From Akkermansiaceae bacterium (GTDB lineage Bacteria > Verrucomicrobiota > Verrucomicrobiia > Verrucomicrobiales > Akkermansiaceae), in contig JANRFH010000052.1 in the NCBI GenBank assembly GCA_030725745.1, positions 29,632 to 71,011 of the forward strand: a DNA stretch of 41,380 bases, written 5' to 3'. The stretch's first letter is position 1, and each line of letters opens with the position of its first letter. Shown here one piece after another: positions 6,298 through 37,604 of this stretch. A model generated the notes under the pieces. That model saw only the letters and a list, made by a program, of their open reading frames with translations, ran no database searches and was not told the DNA's origin. Position numbers and translations under genes: made by a program.

Positions 6298-7665
6298 TTA
6301 TCTCTGGATGAGGAAGATTCTTTGCTCTCGGTAGGTAATCACGGCATCCAGCTCCCGCATGAAATCGGCTCCGAAGAGTCCGACGTAGCCGAGATCGCCG
6401 TCTGGATCGAAGCGGTTAAGATCTGTAGCTAGCACTTGACGGTTAGTTAGGAGAGCGTCGCCCATGGTGAGTTTCGCGATAATGGCAACGGCGGCAGGGG
6501 CTTTTCCGCCGATGCCTTGGACAAATTGATTCATCTCGCCGACCTCACAACCGTTATCGTTGGCTGCTTTGAGGTGTAGCAGGCTGCTGTCCGCTCCGGT
6601 ATCGATGAGAAAGGTGGCTTCGTTGTCATTGAGGGTGCCGTCCACAAAGATGTGGTTCCCCTCACGCGTGTATTCGAAGGATTGGTATTTCCGCAAAACG
6701 AGTAATTCTTGGATGGTAAGGCTCTGGCAGTGCTTAAGAAAATAGGCAGATTCCTCGCTCCAGTCGTTTGCGTATTTTGCGTCTTCGGGGATGAGTCGGG
6801 CGATGGGGAGCTGCAGCTCCTTTCCTTCGACGAGCAGGAGGGTGATCACGGTGGGGGTTTTTGATTTGATCTCCCCGCGGTAAACCTTTTTATCGAGTGT
6901 CTTGAAGAGCCTGAATGCGAGATTTGCGTCATCTGTTGCATCCACCTCTGCGGCTGCCGATTTATCGGGACGGAGGAAAATTTGCCTCTCAGGGTATGAA
7001 ATCACGGCGTCGAGCTGGCTCATGATATCAGCGCCGAGGATGGCTTGCATGCGTAGGGTCGAGGGGTCTTCCAAGCCGTTGGTTAGATCCGTGGCAAGTA
7101 TGGTGGCGCCTTTGAAAGTGGATTCTCCGAAGGAGATGGTGGGGACATCGGTGAAGGCGGCAGGTGCCTGACCGGCGACGCCGTAGATGATCTGATCTAG
7201 CTCTCCGACCTCGCATCCGGCCTCCTTGGCGAAGGGAATGTGGAGAAGGCTGGTGCTTGCCCCGGTATCGATGAGGAACGCTCCTTCCTTTCCGTTGAGC
7301 TTCCCGTCGATCAGGATCGAGTTCCCATCGAGGCGGAAATCGAAGGGCTCGTAGCCTCTGAGTTCCAGCACTTGGCGTACGGTAAGATTTTGGCATTTTG
7401 CCAGAAAGAGCGCCTTTTCCTTGTTCCAAGAGGCGACGTATTTCCGATCTTCCGGGCTCAGGTTGGTGAGAGGCACGGTGGCGCGGTCGCCGTTACTGAG
7501 GAGGAGGGTTGCGCTTTCGTCGGCCTTGTCGATGAGCACTGCTTGGATGACCTTTCCGTTGCTGCCAGTGAAGTCACGGTAGCCATCGTCGGCCGCAAGC
7601 CTTCCGCCCGTGATGACTGAAAGCAAGAGGATGGCGGCGGTAAGGGTAGCGGGTCTGAGGTTCAT
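6298..7665 (-). CDS. Tandem SHD1 + retropepsin-like aspartyl protease protein
   Basis: A 455-residue exported protein built from two copies of the same module. Residues about 1-25 are a signal peptide. SHD1-like domain 1 (28-80) is followed by retropepsin-like domain 1 with FLIDTGASTSLLH (DTG at 133-135). SHD1-like domain 2 (250-302) is followed by retropepsin-like domain 2 with FLIDTGADSSLLH (DTG at 355-357). Each half also shares CEVGE, a GxxGxAPAA stretch, LATDL, GAD-M and LDAVI-Y. One chain therefore carries both aspartates needed for a pepsin-like active site, so it may be a single-chain aspartic peptidase acting in the periplasm. No Ala/Ser replacement of the Asp is seen. It lies 7 bp downstream of another SHD1 gene, probably co-transcribed. 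Confidence 0.85.
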   Translation of the reverse strand: MNLRPATLTAAILLLSVITGGRLAADDGYRDFTGSNGKVIQAVLIDKADESATLLLSNGDRATVPLTNLSPEDRKYVASWNKEKALFLAKCQNLTVRQVLELRGYEPFDFRLDGNSILIDGKLNGKEGAFLIDTGASTSLLHIPFAKEAGCEVGELDQIIYGVAGQAPAAFTDVPTISFGESTFKGATILATDLTNGLEDPSTLRMQAILGADIMSQLDAVISYPERQIFLRPDKSAAAEVDATDDANLAFRLFKTLDKKVYRGEIKSKTPTVITLLLVEGKELQLPIARLIPEDAKYANDWSEESAYFLKHCQSLTIQELLVLRKYQSFEYTREGNHIFVDGTLNDNEATFLIDTGADSSLLHLKAANDNGCEVGEMNQFVQGIGGKAPAAVAIIAKLTMGDALLTNRQVLATDLNRFDPDGDLGYVGLFGADFMRELDAVITYREQRIFLIQR

Positions 7666-10134: not shown

Positions 10135-10883
10135 GGTGTGTCTTCGGAAGGTGTTTCTTGGGATTCCTCCTCAGGCTCTGCGGCTGCAGCCGCGGGCGTG
10201 CCACCGGTGGCGGAGAGGGCGAGTTGTTTTTCCTGCTCCTCTTCCTTGGGGGCATCTTCGGTGGGCTCGGGGAGCTTCACGCGGCGGAGTTCCGAGGCGT
10301 TCGGGAGGTCGTCAATGGAGTTGATGCCGAAGTGTTCGAAGAAAAGCTCGGTGGTCTGGTATAGGAGGGGGCGGCCTGGGAGTTCGGCGCGGCCACCGAT
10401 GCGGACGAGGTCTCGATCAAGGAGTTTCTGGATCATGCCGTCACAGGAAACGCCACGAACGGCCTCGATGGCTGCTTTGGTAATGGGCTGGCGGTAGGCG
10501 ACGATGGCGAGCGTTTCCATGGCGGGGCCGGAGAGGCGCTCTGGCTTGCGGCCGGGGAAAAGGTGACGGACGAACTCGCCGTAATCGGTGCGCGTGTATA
10601 CTTTCCAGCCTTTTGGTCGCTCAAGAATGGTGAAGGCACGGCCAGTTTCCTCGTAATGCTTGTTTAGCCCGGATACGGCTTCAGCGGCTTCTTCGGGGGT
10701 GGTCTGTGCAAGGGCTGCGAGCCATTCAGGGAGAGGCGCAGGGGATGCTCCCTCATCGGTCTCACGGACGATGACGTCTTCCGCCTCAGCCACGCGAGCG
10801 CGAATGAGGCGAGCCATTTCCTTGGAAGAAAGGGGTTCTTGGGAGGCGATTAGGAGGGATTCCAGGATGGCACTGAGTTGCAT
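10131..10883 (-). CDS. scpB: Segregation and condensation protein B
   Basis: Kleisin-interacting subunit of the SMC-ScpAB condensin. The start is placed at ATG 10883 (MQLSAILESLLIASQEPLS), where the conserved first winged-helix domain begins; an in-frame upstream extension to 11048 has no family similarity. Diagnostic segments are the two winged-helix domains, including PERLSGPAMETLAIVAYRQP, ITKAAIEAVRGVSCDGMI and ELPGRPLLYQTTELFFEHFG. The C-terminal tail of about 60 residues is acidic and Ala/Pro-rich and looks disordered. scpA is not in the window. It lies upstream of pheA with a 4-nt ATGA overlap. Confidence 0.93.
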   Translation of the reverse strand: MQLSAILESLLIASQEPLSSKEMARLIRARVAEAEDVIVRETDEGASPAPLPEWLAALAQTTPEEAAEAVSGLNKHYEETGRAFTILERPKGWKVYTRTDYGEFVRHLFPGRKPERLSGPAMETLAIVAYRQPITKAAIEAVRGVSCDGMIQKLLDRDLVRIGGRAELPGRPLLYQTTELFFEHFGINSIDDLPNASELRRVKLPEPTEDAPKEEEQEKQLALSATGGTPAAAAAEPEEESQETPSEDTP

Positions 10884-10951
10884 AGCAGGTCGGCAGATTA
10901 GGGAAGAGGCGGTGCAATTCAAGTACCGGAGCCCGGTGTTGAGAGAAAGAT

Positions 10952-10970
10952 ATTTCACACGTAATGAAAT
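10952..10970. promoter_or_regulatory. Dyad between scpB and the DksA-like gene
   Basis: The sequence ATTTCACACGTAATGAAAT is a perfect 6-bp inverted repeat with a 7-nt spacer. It lies in the 189-bp divergent intergenic region, about 70 bp before scpB and about 100 bp before the DksA-like gene. Its size fits a dimeric repressor site of the Fur/Zur class, but it does not clearly match a published consensus. Confidence 0.2.
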
Positions 10971-11072
10971 TTCCCCTTGAAACGGTCTCTCCTTATGGCT
11001 AATCCACCGCGCTCTTGCCGTAGATATATCTTCTGAAGCGGCGTACACAACTTTCCCTACCGACCATCCATT

Positions 11073-12077
11073 ATGGCTGCAAAAAAAACCGCTAAGACCC
11101 CCCCTGCGAAAAAAACCGTAAAAAAAGCGGCAACCAAAAAGCCTGCGCCCAAGAAAGCCGCTCCGGCAAAGAAGGCTGCTCCTAAAAAGGTGACCCCAAA
11201 GAAAGCTGCTCCTAAAAAGGCTGCGCCAAAGAAGGCAGCTCCCAAGAAGGCAGCTCCCAAGAAAGCAGCTCCCAAGAAAGCAGCTCCCAAGAAAGCAGCT
11301 CCAGCAAAGAAAGCAGCCCCAGCAAAGAAAGCAGCCCCAGCAAAGAAAGCAGCTCCAGCAAAGAAAGCAGCCCCAGCAAAGAAAGTAGCTCCGAAGAAAG
11401 TGACTCCTAAAAAGGTCGCGCCTAAAAAGGTGGTCGAAAAGGCACCCGCAAAAAAAGCAGCTCCCAAGGCTGCTGCGCCGGCGAAACCGGCCAAGAAGAA
11501 GGTTGCTAGGAAATCATCTCTCGTTAGCACTCCGCCACCACCGGCGAAGCCCAAGCCGAAATTTGTCCCGCCAGCGCCGGATATTATTGCGAAATCTCCT
11601 TCCGGCGGCATGGGCAGTCATAGCGCAAGTTTCATCAAGAAGCAGCAACAGCGCCTTCTCGACCTGCGTGATACACTCCTCGATATCGTCACTGGGATGT
11701 CTCGCGAAACAACTGAAGGCAGCGAAGCCTCAGGCAATGGCGAACATCAGGGAGATGCAGGCAGCGATGCCTACGACCGCGATTTCGCCCTGTCCGTCCT
11801 CGCAAAGGAGCAGGACGCCCTTTATGAGATCGAGCAGGCGCTTTATCGCATCAAAGCCGGCACTTACGGGAATTGCGAAATTTCCAGCCACAAGATTCCG
11901 ACGGCACGCCTAGAGGCCATCCCATTTGCCCGTTTGACCGTCGAATGTCAGGCGCAATGGGAGAAGGAATATGGGAACCGCAGGTTCCGTCCGTCCGTCG
12001 AAGTAGGCTTCAGTGGCGGGATGCCACAAGAAGATGAGCAATCTGTCACGGTTTCGCTTGACGGCGACGATGATTAA
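11073..12077 (+). CDS. DksA/TraR-like protein with histone-H1-like Lys/Ala/Pro tail and degenerate zinc finger
   Basis: A 334-residue protein in two parts. Residues 1 to about 148 are a highly basic low-complexity tail of [11 protein letters not shown] repeats like histone H1 C-termini, expected to bind nucleic acid. Residues about 185-310 are a DksA/TraR module: a coiled-coil with the DAYDR tip (D232, D235) matching the catalytic DxxD of DksA that reaches the RNA polymerase secondary channel, then [20 protein letters not shown]. In the zinc-finger spacing C-x2-C-x17-C-x2-C, only C268 and C292 remain; the other two positions are S271 and T289. This resembles zinc-independent DksA2-type proteins. 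It is followed by rpmG and rpsR on the same strand. An alternative reading is a dedicated nucleoid protein that has borrowed a DksA fold. Confidence 0.85.
11157..11432 (+). repeat. In-frame tandem repeats coding [11 protein letters not shown]
   Basis: Imperfect 15- and 18-nt direct repeats (units such as GCTCCCAAGAAGGCA and GCAGCCCCAGCAAAGAAA) encode the basic tail of the DksA-like protein. The nucleotide units are nearly identical within two sub-blocks (about 11235-11295 and 11295-11385), which suggests recent expansion by slippage and probable length variation between strains. Confidence 0.85.
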
Positions 12078-12106
12078 GACAGTATCCGCCCCCCACCAAA
12101 CGAATC

Positions 12107-12280
12107 ATGCCACGCGAGATTATTATCCTTGAATGCACCGAAGCGAAAGCTGAGGGCAAGCCGACGTCCCGTTACGTCACCACGCGCAACAAAAAGAGCC
12201 TGCGCACTCCCGGACGCCTTGAAAAAGTGAAATTCAATCACTTCCTCAAGCGCAGAACCCTTCACCGCGAACTCCGCTAA
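12107..12280 (+). CDS. rpmG: 50S ribosomal protein L33, zinc-free form
   Basis: A short gene of 57 codons beginning [19 protein letters not shown] and ending [12 protein letters not shown], which are the conserved ends of L33. It is a component of the large ribosomal subunit near the E site. The protein has a single cysteine (C10) and lacks the two CxxC pairs of zinc-binding L33, so it is the C-minus type. It starts 29 bp after the DksA-like gene and ends 5 bp before rpsR. Confidence 0.95.
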
Positions 12281-12285
12281 TTATC

Positions 12286-12528
12286 ATGTCTGAGCCAAAG
12301 ACCATCCAACGCCGCATCAATTTCCGTAAGGCGAACCGCCAGATGACCCGCCGTAGGCAGGACATCCCCGTCGAGCAAATCACTCCACTGAACACCGAGG
12401 TTCTCGGCAAGTTCTGTTCAGAGACTGGAAAAATTCTTCCACGTCGTGTTACCGGCGTCTCCGCTAAACTGCATCGCAAAATCAACAACGCGATCAAGCA
12501 GTCCCGTGCCATCAACCTGATGCCATAA
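12286..12528 (+). CDS. rpsR: 30S ribosomal protein S18
   Basis: An 80-residue small-subunit ribosomal protein, identified by the conserved C-terminal half ([20 protein letters not shown] and then [12 protein letters not shown]), which binds 16S rRNA beside S6. The N-terminus is basic. The zinc-type CxxC pair found in some S18 proteins is absent, with only one Cys in GKFCSETGK. It follows rpmG by 5 bp and is followed by a strong terminator, so it is the last gene of that transcript. The usual neighbours rpsF, ssb and rplI are not in the window. Confidence 0.95.
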
Positions 12529-12570
12529 TCGGCAGCAGGGGAGTGCGATAGAGCATGCCATTCGATTTCG

Positions 12571-12600
12571 AGCCCGCCCGTTCATCTGGGCGGGCTTTTC
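12571..12600 (+). terminator. Rho-independent terminator of the rpmG-rpsR unit
   Basis: AGCCCGCCC (12571-12579) pairs perfectly with GGGCGGGCT (12588-12596) around an 8-nt loop and is followed by TTTTC. The 9-bp GC-rich stem plus T-run, 43 bp after the rpsR stop, is a textbook intrinsic terminator. Confidence 0.88.
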
Positions 12601-12638
12601 TCTTCCCCGCATAACGATTCAGACGAGCGACCCAGCAG

Positions 12639-13415
12639 ATGAAGGACTTGGTGGATACCCAGAACGAGCCCGATCACCGCGAGACTGTGATCGATAGGGT
12701 AGGTGTTAGGGAGCTTCGCTATCCGGCGAAATATGCCGGAGCCGATGGTTCCGAGCAGGCAACGGTCGCTAAATTCGAGATGACCGTGGAGCTGCCCTCG
12801 CACCTGAAAGGCACTCACATGAGCCGCTTCGTCGAGGCGCTGCATAGTTTTTCCGAGCCGCTCACCACGGCATCCGTGGCACGGCTGACGCAGGATCTCG
12901 CGGGCAGGCTGCAAGCACAACGCGCGCATGTAGGCTGTGAGTTCACGATTTTCCGCGAAAAAGAGGCTCCTGTCTCGAAGATGAAGAGCTTGATGGATTA
13001 CGAACTCGGCATCGAATGTCGTTTTTCCGAAGATGGAGATCACGAGGTTTTCATGAGTGTGCAGATTCCTGTCGCTACGCTCTGCCCATGTTCAAAGGCA
13101 ATCAGCGAGCGCGGCGCGCATAACCAGCGCGGTGTGGTGACGATTTCCGTGGAGGCTTCGGAAGATGTTTCTTTCGAGGCACTCATCGATCTCGCGGAGC
13201 GCTCCGCAAGCTGCGAGCTTTTCGCCGGTCTGAAGCGCACGGATGAAAAAGCCGTGACCGAGCGCGCTTATGACAGCCCGGCTTTTGTGGAAGATCTGGT
13301 GCGTGATGTTGCCGCCGGTCTGAAAGAATTCGGGGCGATTTCGTGGTATCGTGTGGAAGTGGAGAATTTCGAGTCCATTCACCATCACAATGCTTACGCG
13401 ATGATCGAGGCTTGA
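12639..13415 (+). CDS. folE2: GTP cyclohydrolase FolE2 (type IB)
   Basis: A 258-residue enzyme converting GTP to 7,8-dihydroneopterin triphosphate, the first step of folate (and queuosine-type) synthesis. It belongs to the FolE2/MptA family, which is unrelated in sequence to zinc-dependent FolE and works with other divalent metals. Evidence: the N-terminal VGVRELRYP segment, the active-site block LCPCSKAISERGAHNQRG (C149, C151, H161), and the C-terminal ENFESIHHHNAYA. The length is normal. It starts 110 bp after rpsR, beyond the terminator, so it probably has its own promoter. Confidence 0.95.
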   Translation: MKDLVDTQNEPDHRETVIDRVGVRELRYPAKYAGADGSEQATVAKFEMTVELPSHLKGTHMSRFVEALHSFSEPLTTASVARLTQDLAGRLQAQRAHVGCEFTIFREKEAPVSKMKSLMDYELGIECRFSEDGDHEVFMSVQIPVATLCPCSKAISERGAHNQRGVVTISVEASEDVSFEALIDLAERSASCELFAGLKRTDEKAVTERAYDSPAFVEDLVRDVAAGLKEFGAISWYRVEVENFESIHHHNAYAMIEA

Positions 13416-13495
13416 AATTTCCTCAGATGGGCTAAGTTCCCTCATGCAGGAGGGATGCGCGAACCGGCGGCATCTTACCAAACAAGAAGAACCTC

Positions 13496-14896
13496 ATGGC
13501 TTCCATTATTGCGCGACTGATTTCCTGGCTGGCAGGGAAGGCGGTGGTTTATGTGGTGATCCTCGGCCTGCTACTGGTGATTTTTCTAGTGGCCGCAGTG
13601 CCTCCTATGGTCACGAAATACCATGAGCGGGAGTTGGAAAAGGCGATCGCGCAGCTCAGCGAGAGCAAGGAGCTTGTCGGCGAGCTTGCGGAGCGGGCGG
13701 AGAAAATTAGCTCCGATATCAAGACACGCACGGATGAACTCCGGGAGCTGGAGAAGAAGCGTCAGGAGATGGAAAAGTTCTGGGAGAAGGTAAAAAACCT
13801 TTTCCAAAAAGATGAGATCAAGGCGGAGATGGATCGTATCGACGCCAAGGAAAAGCGCTTAAAGTCTGAGATCAACGGGTATTCCACAGAAAAAAGGCAG
13901 ATACGTGTTGAAGGTGGCGAAAGCGAAGAGGAGCTGAAGCGCAGGGAGCTTCTGCGTGATGACAAGGAGCGCCAGCTGCGTGAGATACAGGATATGAGGA
14001 ATGCGCTGGACTCGTTGATGCGCAACGAGCTGCGAGCATTGGCGCTCAAGGCGCTCATGATCCTCGCAGCTATCATCATCATTCCTTTCCTTTGGAAATT
14101 GTTCGCCTTTTATGTGGTTGCACCAATGGCACAATCTGCGAAGCCGATCCTGTTAGGTGCTGATAAGCTCGATGCGCAGGGTATCTCGGCGACACTTAGC
14201 CATCCGGCACAGCGCATCGATTTGTCAGATGGAGAGGTGCTGATGACGAAGGTCGATTACCTCCAAGGCTCGATGGGGAATTTCGAAAAGAAAACCAAGT
14301 GGCTGATCGACTGGCGTTATCCGTTATCGAGCCTCGCCTCCGGCCTCTATATCCTCACTCGCATCCGGAATATCGGTGAGCAGTCGGGGCAAATCACACT
14401 TTCCACCCAAGAGAACGCGACTGAGGAACTGGCGGTGGTCGATGTGCCGGAGGGGAAATCACTGGTATTCCGCCCTCATTATCTCGTGGCGGTGACACAC
14501 TTACTCGACCGCCCTCCGAGAATTCGTTCGAAGTGGGTTTTCGGCAAACTCCATGCATGGATCAACCTGCGCTTCCGCTACCTCATCATGGACGGGCCGG
14601 TGAAATTGGTCTTCTCGGCGCAGCGCGGGATACAGGTGGAATCAGTATCGCCGGATCTTCCAGGTCGCCGCGTGAATAGCAATCTGACAGCGGCGTTCAG
14701 CCCGCACCTAAATCACTCGCCGAAGCGTGCGGAGACTTTTGTTGCCTATCTTCGTGGGAAAAACGGCTTGTTCGACGACTTTTTCCAAGGTGCCGGTATT
14801 GTGATCCAGCAGCAGGTATCTGCTGGAAAGAAGAACCCTGCTGCGAAGCTCTGGGATACGGTGTTTGGAGCGATTGGGAAGGTCTTCGGTATCTGA
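13496..14896 (+). CDS. Two-TM coiled-coil membrane protein with AIM24-like C-terminal domain
   Basis: A 466-residue protein. TM1 is at about 17-37, a long charged coiled coil spans about 43-180, TM2 is at about 185-209, and a C-terminal beta-rich domain (about 215-460) follows. Parts of the C-terminal domain (GKSLVFRPHYLVAV, then FRYLIMDGPVKLVFSAQRG and later LRGKNGLFDDFFQGAG) are reminiscent of the AIM24/TraT-like family, but this assignment is tentative. The coiled coil between two membrane spans would form a long loop on one side of the membrane. It sits between folE2 and a convergent UbiA-like gene (2-bp gap between stops) and appears monocistronic. Confidence 0.7.
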   Translation: MASIIARLISWLAGKAVVYVVILGLLLVIFLVAAVPPMVTKYHERELEKAIAQLSESKELVGELAERAEKISSDIKTRTDELRELEKKRQEMEKFWEKVKNLFQKDEIKAEMDRIDAKEKRLKSEINGYSTEKRQIRVEGGESEEELKRRELLRDDKERQLREIQDMRNALDSLMRNELRALALKALMILAAIIIIPFLWKLFAFYVVAPMAQSAKPILLGADKLDAQGISATLSHPAQRIDLSDGEVLMTKVDYLQGSMGNFEKKTKWLIDWRYPLSSLASGLYILTRIRNIGEQSGQITLSTQENATEELAVVDVPEGKSLVFRPHYLVAVTHLLDRPPRIRSKWVFGKLHAWINLRFRYLIMDGPVKLVFSAQRGIQVESVSPDLPGRRVNSNLTAAFSPHLNHSPKRAETFVAYLRGKNGLFDDFFQGAGIVIQQQVSAGKKNPAAKLWDTVFGAIGKVFGI

Positions 14897-36725: not shown

Positions 36726-37604
36726 TTAATCGATTGGCTCCACATCCACCTCAACGGTGAGGCTCTGCCCGCCGGCTCCGAGAGTGACCCCGCGCAGGGG
36801 GCTGACATCGGAAAAGTCCCGTCCCCATGCAACGGTGATGTGACGTTCGCTGGGGAGGATGTTGTTGGTGGGATCACAATCGACCCAACCCGTTTCTTCG
36901 CCGCAGAATACCGAAACCCATGCGTGGGAAGCATCCGCTCCGACGAGTCGTTTCTGACCGGGAGGTGGTAGTGTTTCCAAATATCCGCTGACGTAGCGCG
37001 CAGGAAGGCCGAGCGAGCGTAGGCAGGCAAGCATGAGGTGGGCGAAATCTTGGCAGACTCCGGCTTTTTTCAAGAGGACATCCGCGACTGGCGTGGCGAC
37101 ATCGGTGGCTTTAGGGTCGAAATCGCATTCGTCAAAAACGCGTTTCATGAATGCCATAGCCGCCTGGAGAATAGGTCTTCCCGGTGTAAAATCTGGGCGT
37201 GCGTAATCTGCGAATTCCTCGCCGAGCGGCACCATGGGAGAGCCGAAACGGAAGGCTCCGGCCTCTGTGCTGAGGGTGAGCTTGTCTGCACTGCTAGCGA
37301 GGACGATGCTTTCCCATGCAGGAGTCGATTCTGGAGGGGGTAGTTTGATGGGAAATACCTCCACGAGACTGCGTGCCGTGACTTCTAGCTCGGTGTGTGC
37401 TCCCTCGCACTCGAAGTAAGCGGTCTCGTTGCCATAAACATCGTTGTGTAGGCTGCGTCCGACCGGCTCTGGTTTCACCTCGATGATGTGCCACGGGCAG
37501 CGTTGTCCCGGAAGGAATCTCGGCGCCAAGCGTGCGAGATGGTGGGAAACGGAGACGGCACCCTCATATTTGTAGTGATTACGATGTGTCAGGGAGTAGC
37601 GCAC
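36726..37604 (-). CDS. Transglutaminase-like protein with bacterial N-terminal domain
   Basis: A 292-residue protein. The N-terminal domain (about 1-85, RYSLTHRNHYKYEGAVSVSH) is the bacterial transglutaminase-like N-terminal domain, followed by a transglutaminase core with C184 (GVCQDFAHLMLACLRSLG), H227 (DASHAWVSVF) and D244 (WVDCDPTNN). The triad is complete, so thiol-peptidase or amidase activity is plausible; cross-linking is not implied. No signal peptide is seen. In many genomes such genes sit near alpha-E and circularly-permuted ATP-grasp genes, which are absent here. Confidence 0.9.
   Translation of the reverse strand: MRYSLTHRNHYKYEGAVSVSHHLARLAPRFLPGQRCPWHIIEVKPEPVGRSLHNDVYGNETAYFECEGAHTELEVTARSLVEVFPIKLPPPESTPAWESIVLASSADKLTLSTEAGAFRFGSPMVPLGEEFADYARPDFTPGRPILQAAMAFMKRVFDECDFDPKATDVATPVADVLLKKAGVCQDFAHLMLACLRSLGLPARYVSGYLETLPPPGQKRLVGADASHAWVSVFCGEETGWVDCDPTNNILPSERHITVAWGRDFSDVSPLRGVTLGAGGQSLTVEVDVEPID

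Follow-up and report, generated by a model that had tools for sequence, protein, structure and literature searches.

A DksA-like gene with a degenerate finger and its ribosomal protein and folE2 neighbours appear to be everyday sole versions in a Verrucomicrobiota genome

Genes for a DksA-like protein, ribosomal proteins L33 (rpmG) and S18 (rpsR) and the GTP cyclohydrolase FolE2 lie side by side in an Akkermansiaceae genome, and the cluster appears to consist of the ordinary, everyday versions of these proteins, not of a response to zinc starvation. Very probably, dksA-like, rpmG and rpsR form a constitutive housekeeping operon that is ended by an intrinsic terminator, with folE2 next in line and each gene the sole version found in the genome.

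Gene content and conservation of the locus

The window, which is the whole 41,380-nt stretch of DNA analysed here (G000:C52:29632-71011), comes from a Verrucomicrobiota genome of 3,424,545 bases in 57 contigs that is 95.06% complete. Pfam and NCBIfam named the dksA-like gene (11073-12077, 334 aa, zf-dskA_traR), rpmG (12107-12280, 57 aa, Ribosomal_L33), rpsR (12286-12528, 80 aa, Ribosomal_S18) and folE2 (12639-13415, 258 aa), as well as scpB, the divergent neighbour upstream of the dksA-like gene. L33 scored 49.3 bits against a Pfam cut-off of 25 and S18 61.2 bits against 21, while FolE2 exceeded the NCBIfam equivalog cut-off NF010200 (275.1 versus 215 bits). The initial annotation had described the four genes as a row on one strand, and all were confirmed on the + strand. 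Its placing of folE2 as an adjoining gene on that strand also stands, with the qualification that 110 bp with an intrinsic terminator (12570-12597) precede folE2; the genes therefore form a row, not plainly one unit. Elsewhere in the window, a predicted protein (6298-7665) consists of two halves that are alike, and in both of them a DTGA motif like that of aspartic proteases was recognized by eye.

For comparison, a scan of genomes with the DksA domain gave 129 related loci, of which the best 80, ranked by similarity to the DksA of the window, were kept as the family sample. All 80 were from Verrucomicrobiota, including Prosthecobacter, Haloferula, Luteolibacter, Akkermansia and Rubritalea. 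Among these best 80 of 129, an L33 match adjoined dksA in every locus and an S18 match in 77, and the four finger positions of DksA read C-S-T-C in 79 and C-S-T-E in one, which rules out chance or sequencing error as the source of the missing cysteines.

A genome with sole, zinc-free or zinc-degenerate copies

Searches of the 95% complete genome with zf-dskA_traR, L33 and S18 found no second dksA-like gene, rpmG or rpsR, and a search for FolE (PF01227) likewise found none. The absence of other copies had been named in the initial annotation as one of two conditions, the other being expression that does not respond to zinc, that would count against its zinc-sparing reading. Its description of the two ribosomal proteins was right: L33 has one Cys (in ECTEA), and S18 has one Cys and no CxxC pair. 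L31 is encoded by a single gene whose frame lacks Cys, and L36 by a single gene with H, C, C and F at the ligand positions, where the zinc form of L36 has C, C, C and H. We take this L31 to be of the YkgM/RpmE2 type and this L36 to be of the YkgO/RpmJ2 type. With L31 and L36 included, all of these genes are single and zinc-free or degenerate, which supports the suggestion of sole copies in a lineage where these proteins no longer depend on zinc.

The same pattern extended across the class. We examined 40 class loci from 39 genomes, one from each of 38 class families plus two from the same-family genome G024, a sample that leaves aside the other families of the 30-locus finger search described below. 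L33 followed dksA in 22 of these loci, S18 in 25, and either or both in 30 (matches allowed to E 1; worst accepted, 2.8e-7). Wherever the gene was present after dksA, L33 was the one-Cys form (22/22) and the aligned part of S18 lacked CxxC (25/25). In this genome the evidence supports sole copies that dispense with zinc, and for DksA, L33 and S18 it supports the zinc-free or degenerate state in most of the class loci sampled. For the ribosomal proteins this is already known and was published in 2009: Table 2 of Chen et al. lists Verrucomicrobiae as C-minus for L32, L36, L31, S14, L33, S18, L28 and S4, and section 13 of that paper gives no number of Verrucomicrobiae genomes (PMC3087516).

FolE2 follows a lineage-dependent pattern. 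Across 145 family genomes, FolE2 was found in 122 and FolE in 17, with both in G102 only. FolE was present in 16 of the 23 genomes without FolE2 (G130 and G143 assigned by elimination); of the remaining seven, six were at 58-88% completeness and G137 was assigned by elimination. One enzyme or the other therefore serves, depending on lineage. We considered whether FolE occupies the folE2 site in genomes that lack folE2 and rejected this, as the six FolE loci compared, out of 17 (L090-L095, 2.5-3.5 kb), contained no dksA, L33 or S18 match. Two further families of the class have folE2 directly upstream of the dksA-like gene (L130:2712-3470 and L139:2614-3381), and because it is linked to the cluster on either side, its placement may not be incidental.

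A DksA domain without a full zinc finger

The coiled-coil and degenerate finger domain of the DksA-like protein (11625..12077, + strand) matched Pfam zf-dskA_traR with 27 bits against a cut-off of 24.9. Matches to the named DksA/YteA subfamilies fell below their curated cut-offs (TIGR02420, 44 versus 115.5 bits; NF033459, 53.6 versus 105; TIGR02890, 72.3 versus 134.4). Finger positions 268, 271, 289 and 292 are C, S, T and C, so that a C4 zinc finger is absent; the earlier statement that only C268 and C292 are retained was exact. A model of the domain, built from a 42-sequence alignment (mean pLDDT 75.5), had the zinc-independent DksA2 of Pseudomonas aeruginosa as its best fold match (4ijj_A, E 1.4e-6, TM 0.66/0.76). 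This was one of seven fold matches at E <= 0.001, which also included DksA of Chlamydia (6ptg), DksA of Escherichia coli (1tjl) and E. coli DksA on RNA polymerase (7khi, 5vsw). The top PDB sequence match was Chlamydia trachomatis DksA (6ptg, E 3.6e-22). The model supports a DksA fold, coiled coil plus globular part, that is held without a full zinc site, and by analogy with P. aeruginosa DksA2 the globular domain would be stable in this state. Such a protein would still bind RNA polymerase and adjust ribosomal promoters. Among the papers listed by literature searches, none described this DksA-like protein, judged by titles and the opening lines of abstracts.

Across the class Verrucomicrobiae, DksA fingers occur with four, three, two or one Cys, a small new point. 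The 40 class loci comprised C-S-T-C (19), C-T-T-A (9), C-C-C-C (4), C-T-S-G (3), C-C-T-C (2) and three single forms. A further 30 class loci comprised C-S-T-C (10), C-C-C-C (10), C-C-T-C (9) and C-S-S-C (1), and lean towards full fingers because they were picked as the highest-scoring finger matches. All four Cys were retained in 14 of the 70 sampled loci (L097, L104, L105, L109, L111, L112, L116, L119, L120, L121, L127, L129, L143 and L165). The series looks like a stepwise loss. Alternatively, the finger states may represent separate DksA subfamilies, with the four-Cys forms possibly separate and unlinked to the cluster, since rpsR lay beside dksA in only one of the 14 four-Cys loci (L097). 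One of the 14, L165 (G024:C7:196030-204641), comes from the same-family genome, which has three DksA-family genes, two of them short frames of 129 and 138 aa; the best-matched one has four Cys, and the genome has FolE and no FolE2 match. With four, three, two and one Cys all represented within one class, nature offers a ready series in which to study the purpose of the finger.

The least ordinary feature of the locus, and again a small new point, is the histone H1-like tail on DksA. Residues 1-184 (11073..11624, + strand) form a Lys/Ala/Pro-rich N-terminal tail; relatives carry tails as well, and that of the window matches the histone H1-like family NF038053 (E 1.4e-6, 28.8 bits, under the cut-off of 80). 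In the 68 measurable loci of the family sample (best 80 of 129), tail length was 40-343 aa with a median of 174.5, counted from the most upstream ATG, which may overshoot the true start. Tails that, likewise counted, reached 50 aa or more and contained 20% or more Lys plus Arg were found in 26 of the 33 measurable loci among the 40 class loci, whereas L137 and L154 have short acidic tails instead. An H1-tailed DksA merits biochemical test.

A putative operon promoter

Alignment of the window with 29 hand-picked relatives from the 80 family loci revealed a largely conserved upstream block, TTTCCnCTTGA ... GCTAATCCACCGCGC; in L072 and L074 its conservation weakens past the TAAT. In the window, this block (10970..11012, + strand) reads TTTCCCC-TTGAAA, a 17-nt spacer, TAATCC and a GC-rich ACCGCGC, and is consistent with a sigma70-like promoter with a GC-rich discriminator. 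A partly conserved, AT-rich segment that immediately precedes the putative -35 element (10940..10969, + strand) would be UP-element-like. The arrangement may resemble that of E. coli rrnB P1. A sigma70 consensus scan of 10800-13600 returned no site, and the promoter pattern at 0 mismatches occurred at this place only in the genome. Use of the same promoter by other genes was considered and discarded: five other sites matched with 3 mismatches, versus three in a reversed control. We postulate that dksA-rpmG-rpsR is transcribed from a single promoter of the sigma70 type, at about 10970-11012, and that zinc would not act as the signal.

The rpsR terminator and expression of folE2

An intrinsic terminator follows rpsR (12570..12604, + strand), with an 11-pair stem, a loop of 6 and a T-rich tail. 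A terminator was detected at this place in 43 of the 46 loci that carry folE2 and in 28 of the 31 that show no folE2 match, versus 10 of 385 shuffles that preserved single-base composition only; the loci in which none was detected were L058, L076 and L087 (folE2 present) and L034, L041 and L060 (no folE2 match). In 22 loci whose gaps, out of 47, were chosen for alignment because they were short, six of the 11 stem pairs changed on both sides yet stayed paired, and one pair was broken in five. The whole 110-nt gap folded only modestly better than its shuffles (z -1.68; 13 of 200 shuffles folded equally well), and terminator-like sites in 10800-13600 numbered 6, close to the average of 4.0 (sd 1.8) in shuffled sequence. 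As the terminator is also present where folE2 is not, it is most likely part of the ribosomal operon.

In 18 of the 44 loci with a detected stem, only 12-19 nt lay between the end of the stem and the aligned start of folE2, so that a promoter of its own would have little space or none; the distance was 41 nt in the window and 155-225 nt in five loci, and the aligned start was not an ATG in L033 and L087. No shared promoter element was apparent by eye between stem and folE2 in the aligned loci. To judge from the terminator and this spacing, folE2 is either outside the core operon or reached by readthrough or a very short leader: its transcription might result from partial readthrough of the terminator, or start at a promoter with a very short leader that overlaps the terminator. 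Separately, five loci (L008, L010, L011, L015 and L038) have about 135-190 extra nt after the terminator in the rpsR-folE2 gap, near-identical in the first three and partly alike in the other two, that resemble an inserted repeat element.

The features described so far can be joined in a broader proposal that we advance only as a tentative and rather doubtful one. The general DksA of Verrucomicrobiae would be a hybrid regulator, in which a DksA domain that lacks a functional finger is tethered to DNA by an H1-like tail, is co-transcribed with L33 and S18, and controls its own ribosomal operon through the promoter with a GC-rich discriminator; folE2 would be expressed by terminator readthrough where it is kept at this site.

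A different role for the terminator is that of an attenuator, through which folE2 alone would be regulated, whether the signal is zinc, folate or something else, with the three upstream genes expressed constitutively. The lack of room for a promoter of its own where the stem ends 12-19 nt before folE2, and the pairing kept through sequence changes, speak for this. We nevertheless consider it unlikely, as 28 of the 31 loci in which no folE2 match was found also have a terminator after rpsR, which thus serves the ribosomal operon first, Rfam gave no match up to E 1 in 10800-13600, and the stem stands 155-225 nt from folE2 in five loci, compared with 41 nt in the window.

Zinc and Zur

Less probable still is a Zur-controlled zinc-sparing block, in which the genes would be derepressed when zinc is short and their products would replace zinc-using counterparts. 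The initial annotation had offered this reading beside that of sole copies, and only the latter part of its interpretation is supported. The attraction is that the kinds of gene match Zur regulon members elsewhere, namely dksA, folE2, rpmG2, rpsR2, rpmE2 and rpmJ2 (PMC6103462, PMC8531726). In P. aeruginosa, C-minus DksA2, FolE2, RpmE2 and RpmJ2 replace zinc-using paralogues under Zur (PMC8531726). Here there is nothing to spare: the searches of the 95% complete genome found no zinc-using counterparts for dksA, L33, S18, FolE2, L31 or L36, so that a paralogue swap of the P. aeruginosa kind cannot work in this genome. Shutting off the sole S18 by zinc would moreover be expected to halt ribosome synthesis. 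Two patterns that we assumed to represent Zur boxes were without a match near the genes: TGTTATANNATAACA had 0 matches in the window against 1.71 expected, and TCGTAATNATTACGA had 1 match, at 37570, against 0.63 expected, which is chance level; the Zur box in this lineage may differ from both patterns. The genome carries four Fur-family genes (two on C46, one on C30 at 8 kb and one on C2), which speaks for the Zur reading in that a Zur with a box of another pattern is possible. The one Fur protein of the four that was compared with solved structures matched Fur best and Zur less well, with iron regulators at the top, and neither of the two ZnuA-type genes (C57, and C30 at 107 kb) is near a Fur gene.

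Chance adjacency of unrelated genes is the least credible explanation. In its favour, 31 of the 77 family loci showed no folE2 match in the available sequence past rpsR (which is less than 1 kb in at least L023 and L035), but rpmG and/or rpsR followed dksA in 30 of the 40 class loci, and L130 and L139, from two other families, have folE2 directly before dksA. For dksA-rpmG-rpsR the data already run against chance; for folE2 it may still hold.

The preferred reading, a housekeeping operon, corrects a tempting one. In Pseudomonas, Bacillus or Streptomyces such genes are markers of zinc starvation; here they are single-copy, so that finding them in a genome of this kind does not point to zinc stress or Zur control.

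Comparison with known systems

The aligned finger of C. trachomatis DksA (6ptg) is also short of Cys (C-S ... T-V-K-S), and Chlamydia belongs to a phylum related to Verrucomicrobiota; at 132 residues, its chain is without the long tail of the protein in the window. P. aeruginosa DksA2 (4ijj) is, like the DksA of the window, a DksA domain without the full set of zinc ligands, and is described as devoid of a zinc finger (PMC8531726). P. aeruginosa has DksA2 in addition to DksA, as a second copy that Zur represses (PMC8531726), whereas no other copy was found beside the DksA of the window, which retains two Cys and has a Lys/Ala/Pro-rich tail of 184 aa. C-minus types of L33, S18, L31 and L36 elsewhere have lost their zinc ligands, as in this genome; rpmE2 and rpmJ/rpmJ2 belong to the Zur regulons of E. 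coli and P. aeruginosa (PMC6103462, PMC8531726), whereas L31 and L36 are encoded here by single copies. FolE2 stands in this genome without FolE beside it.
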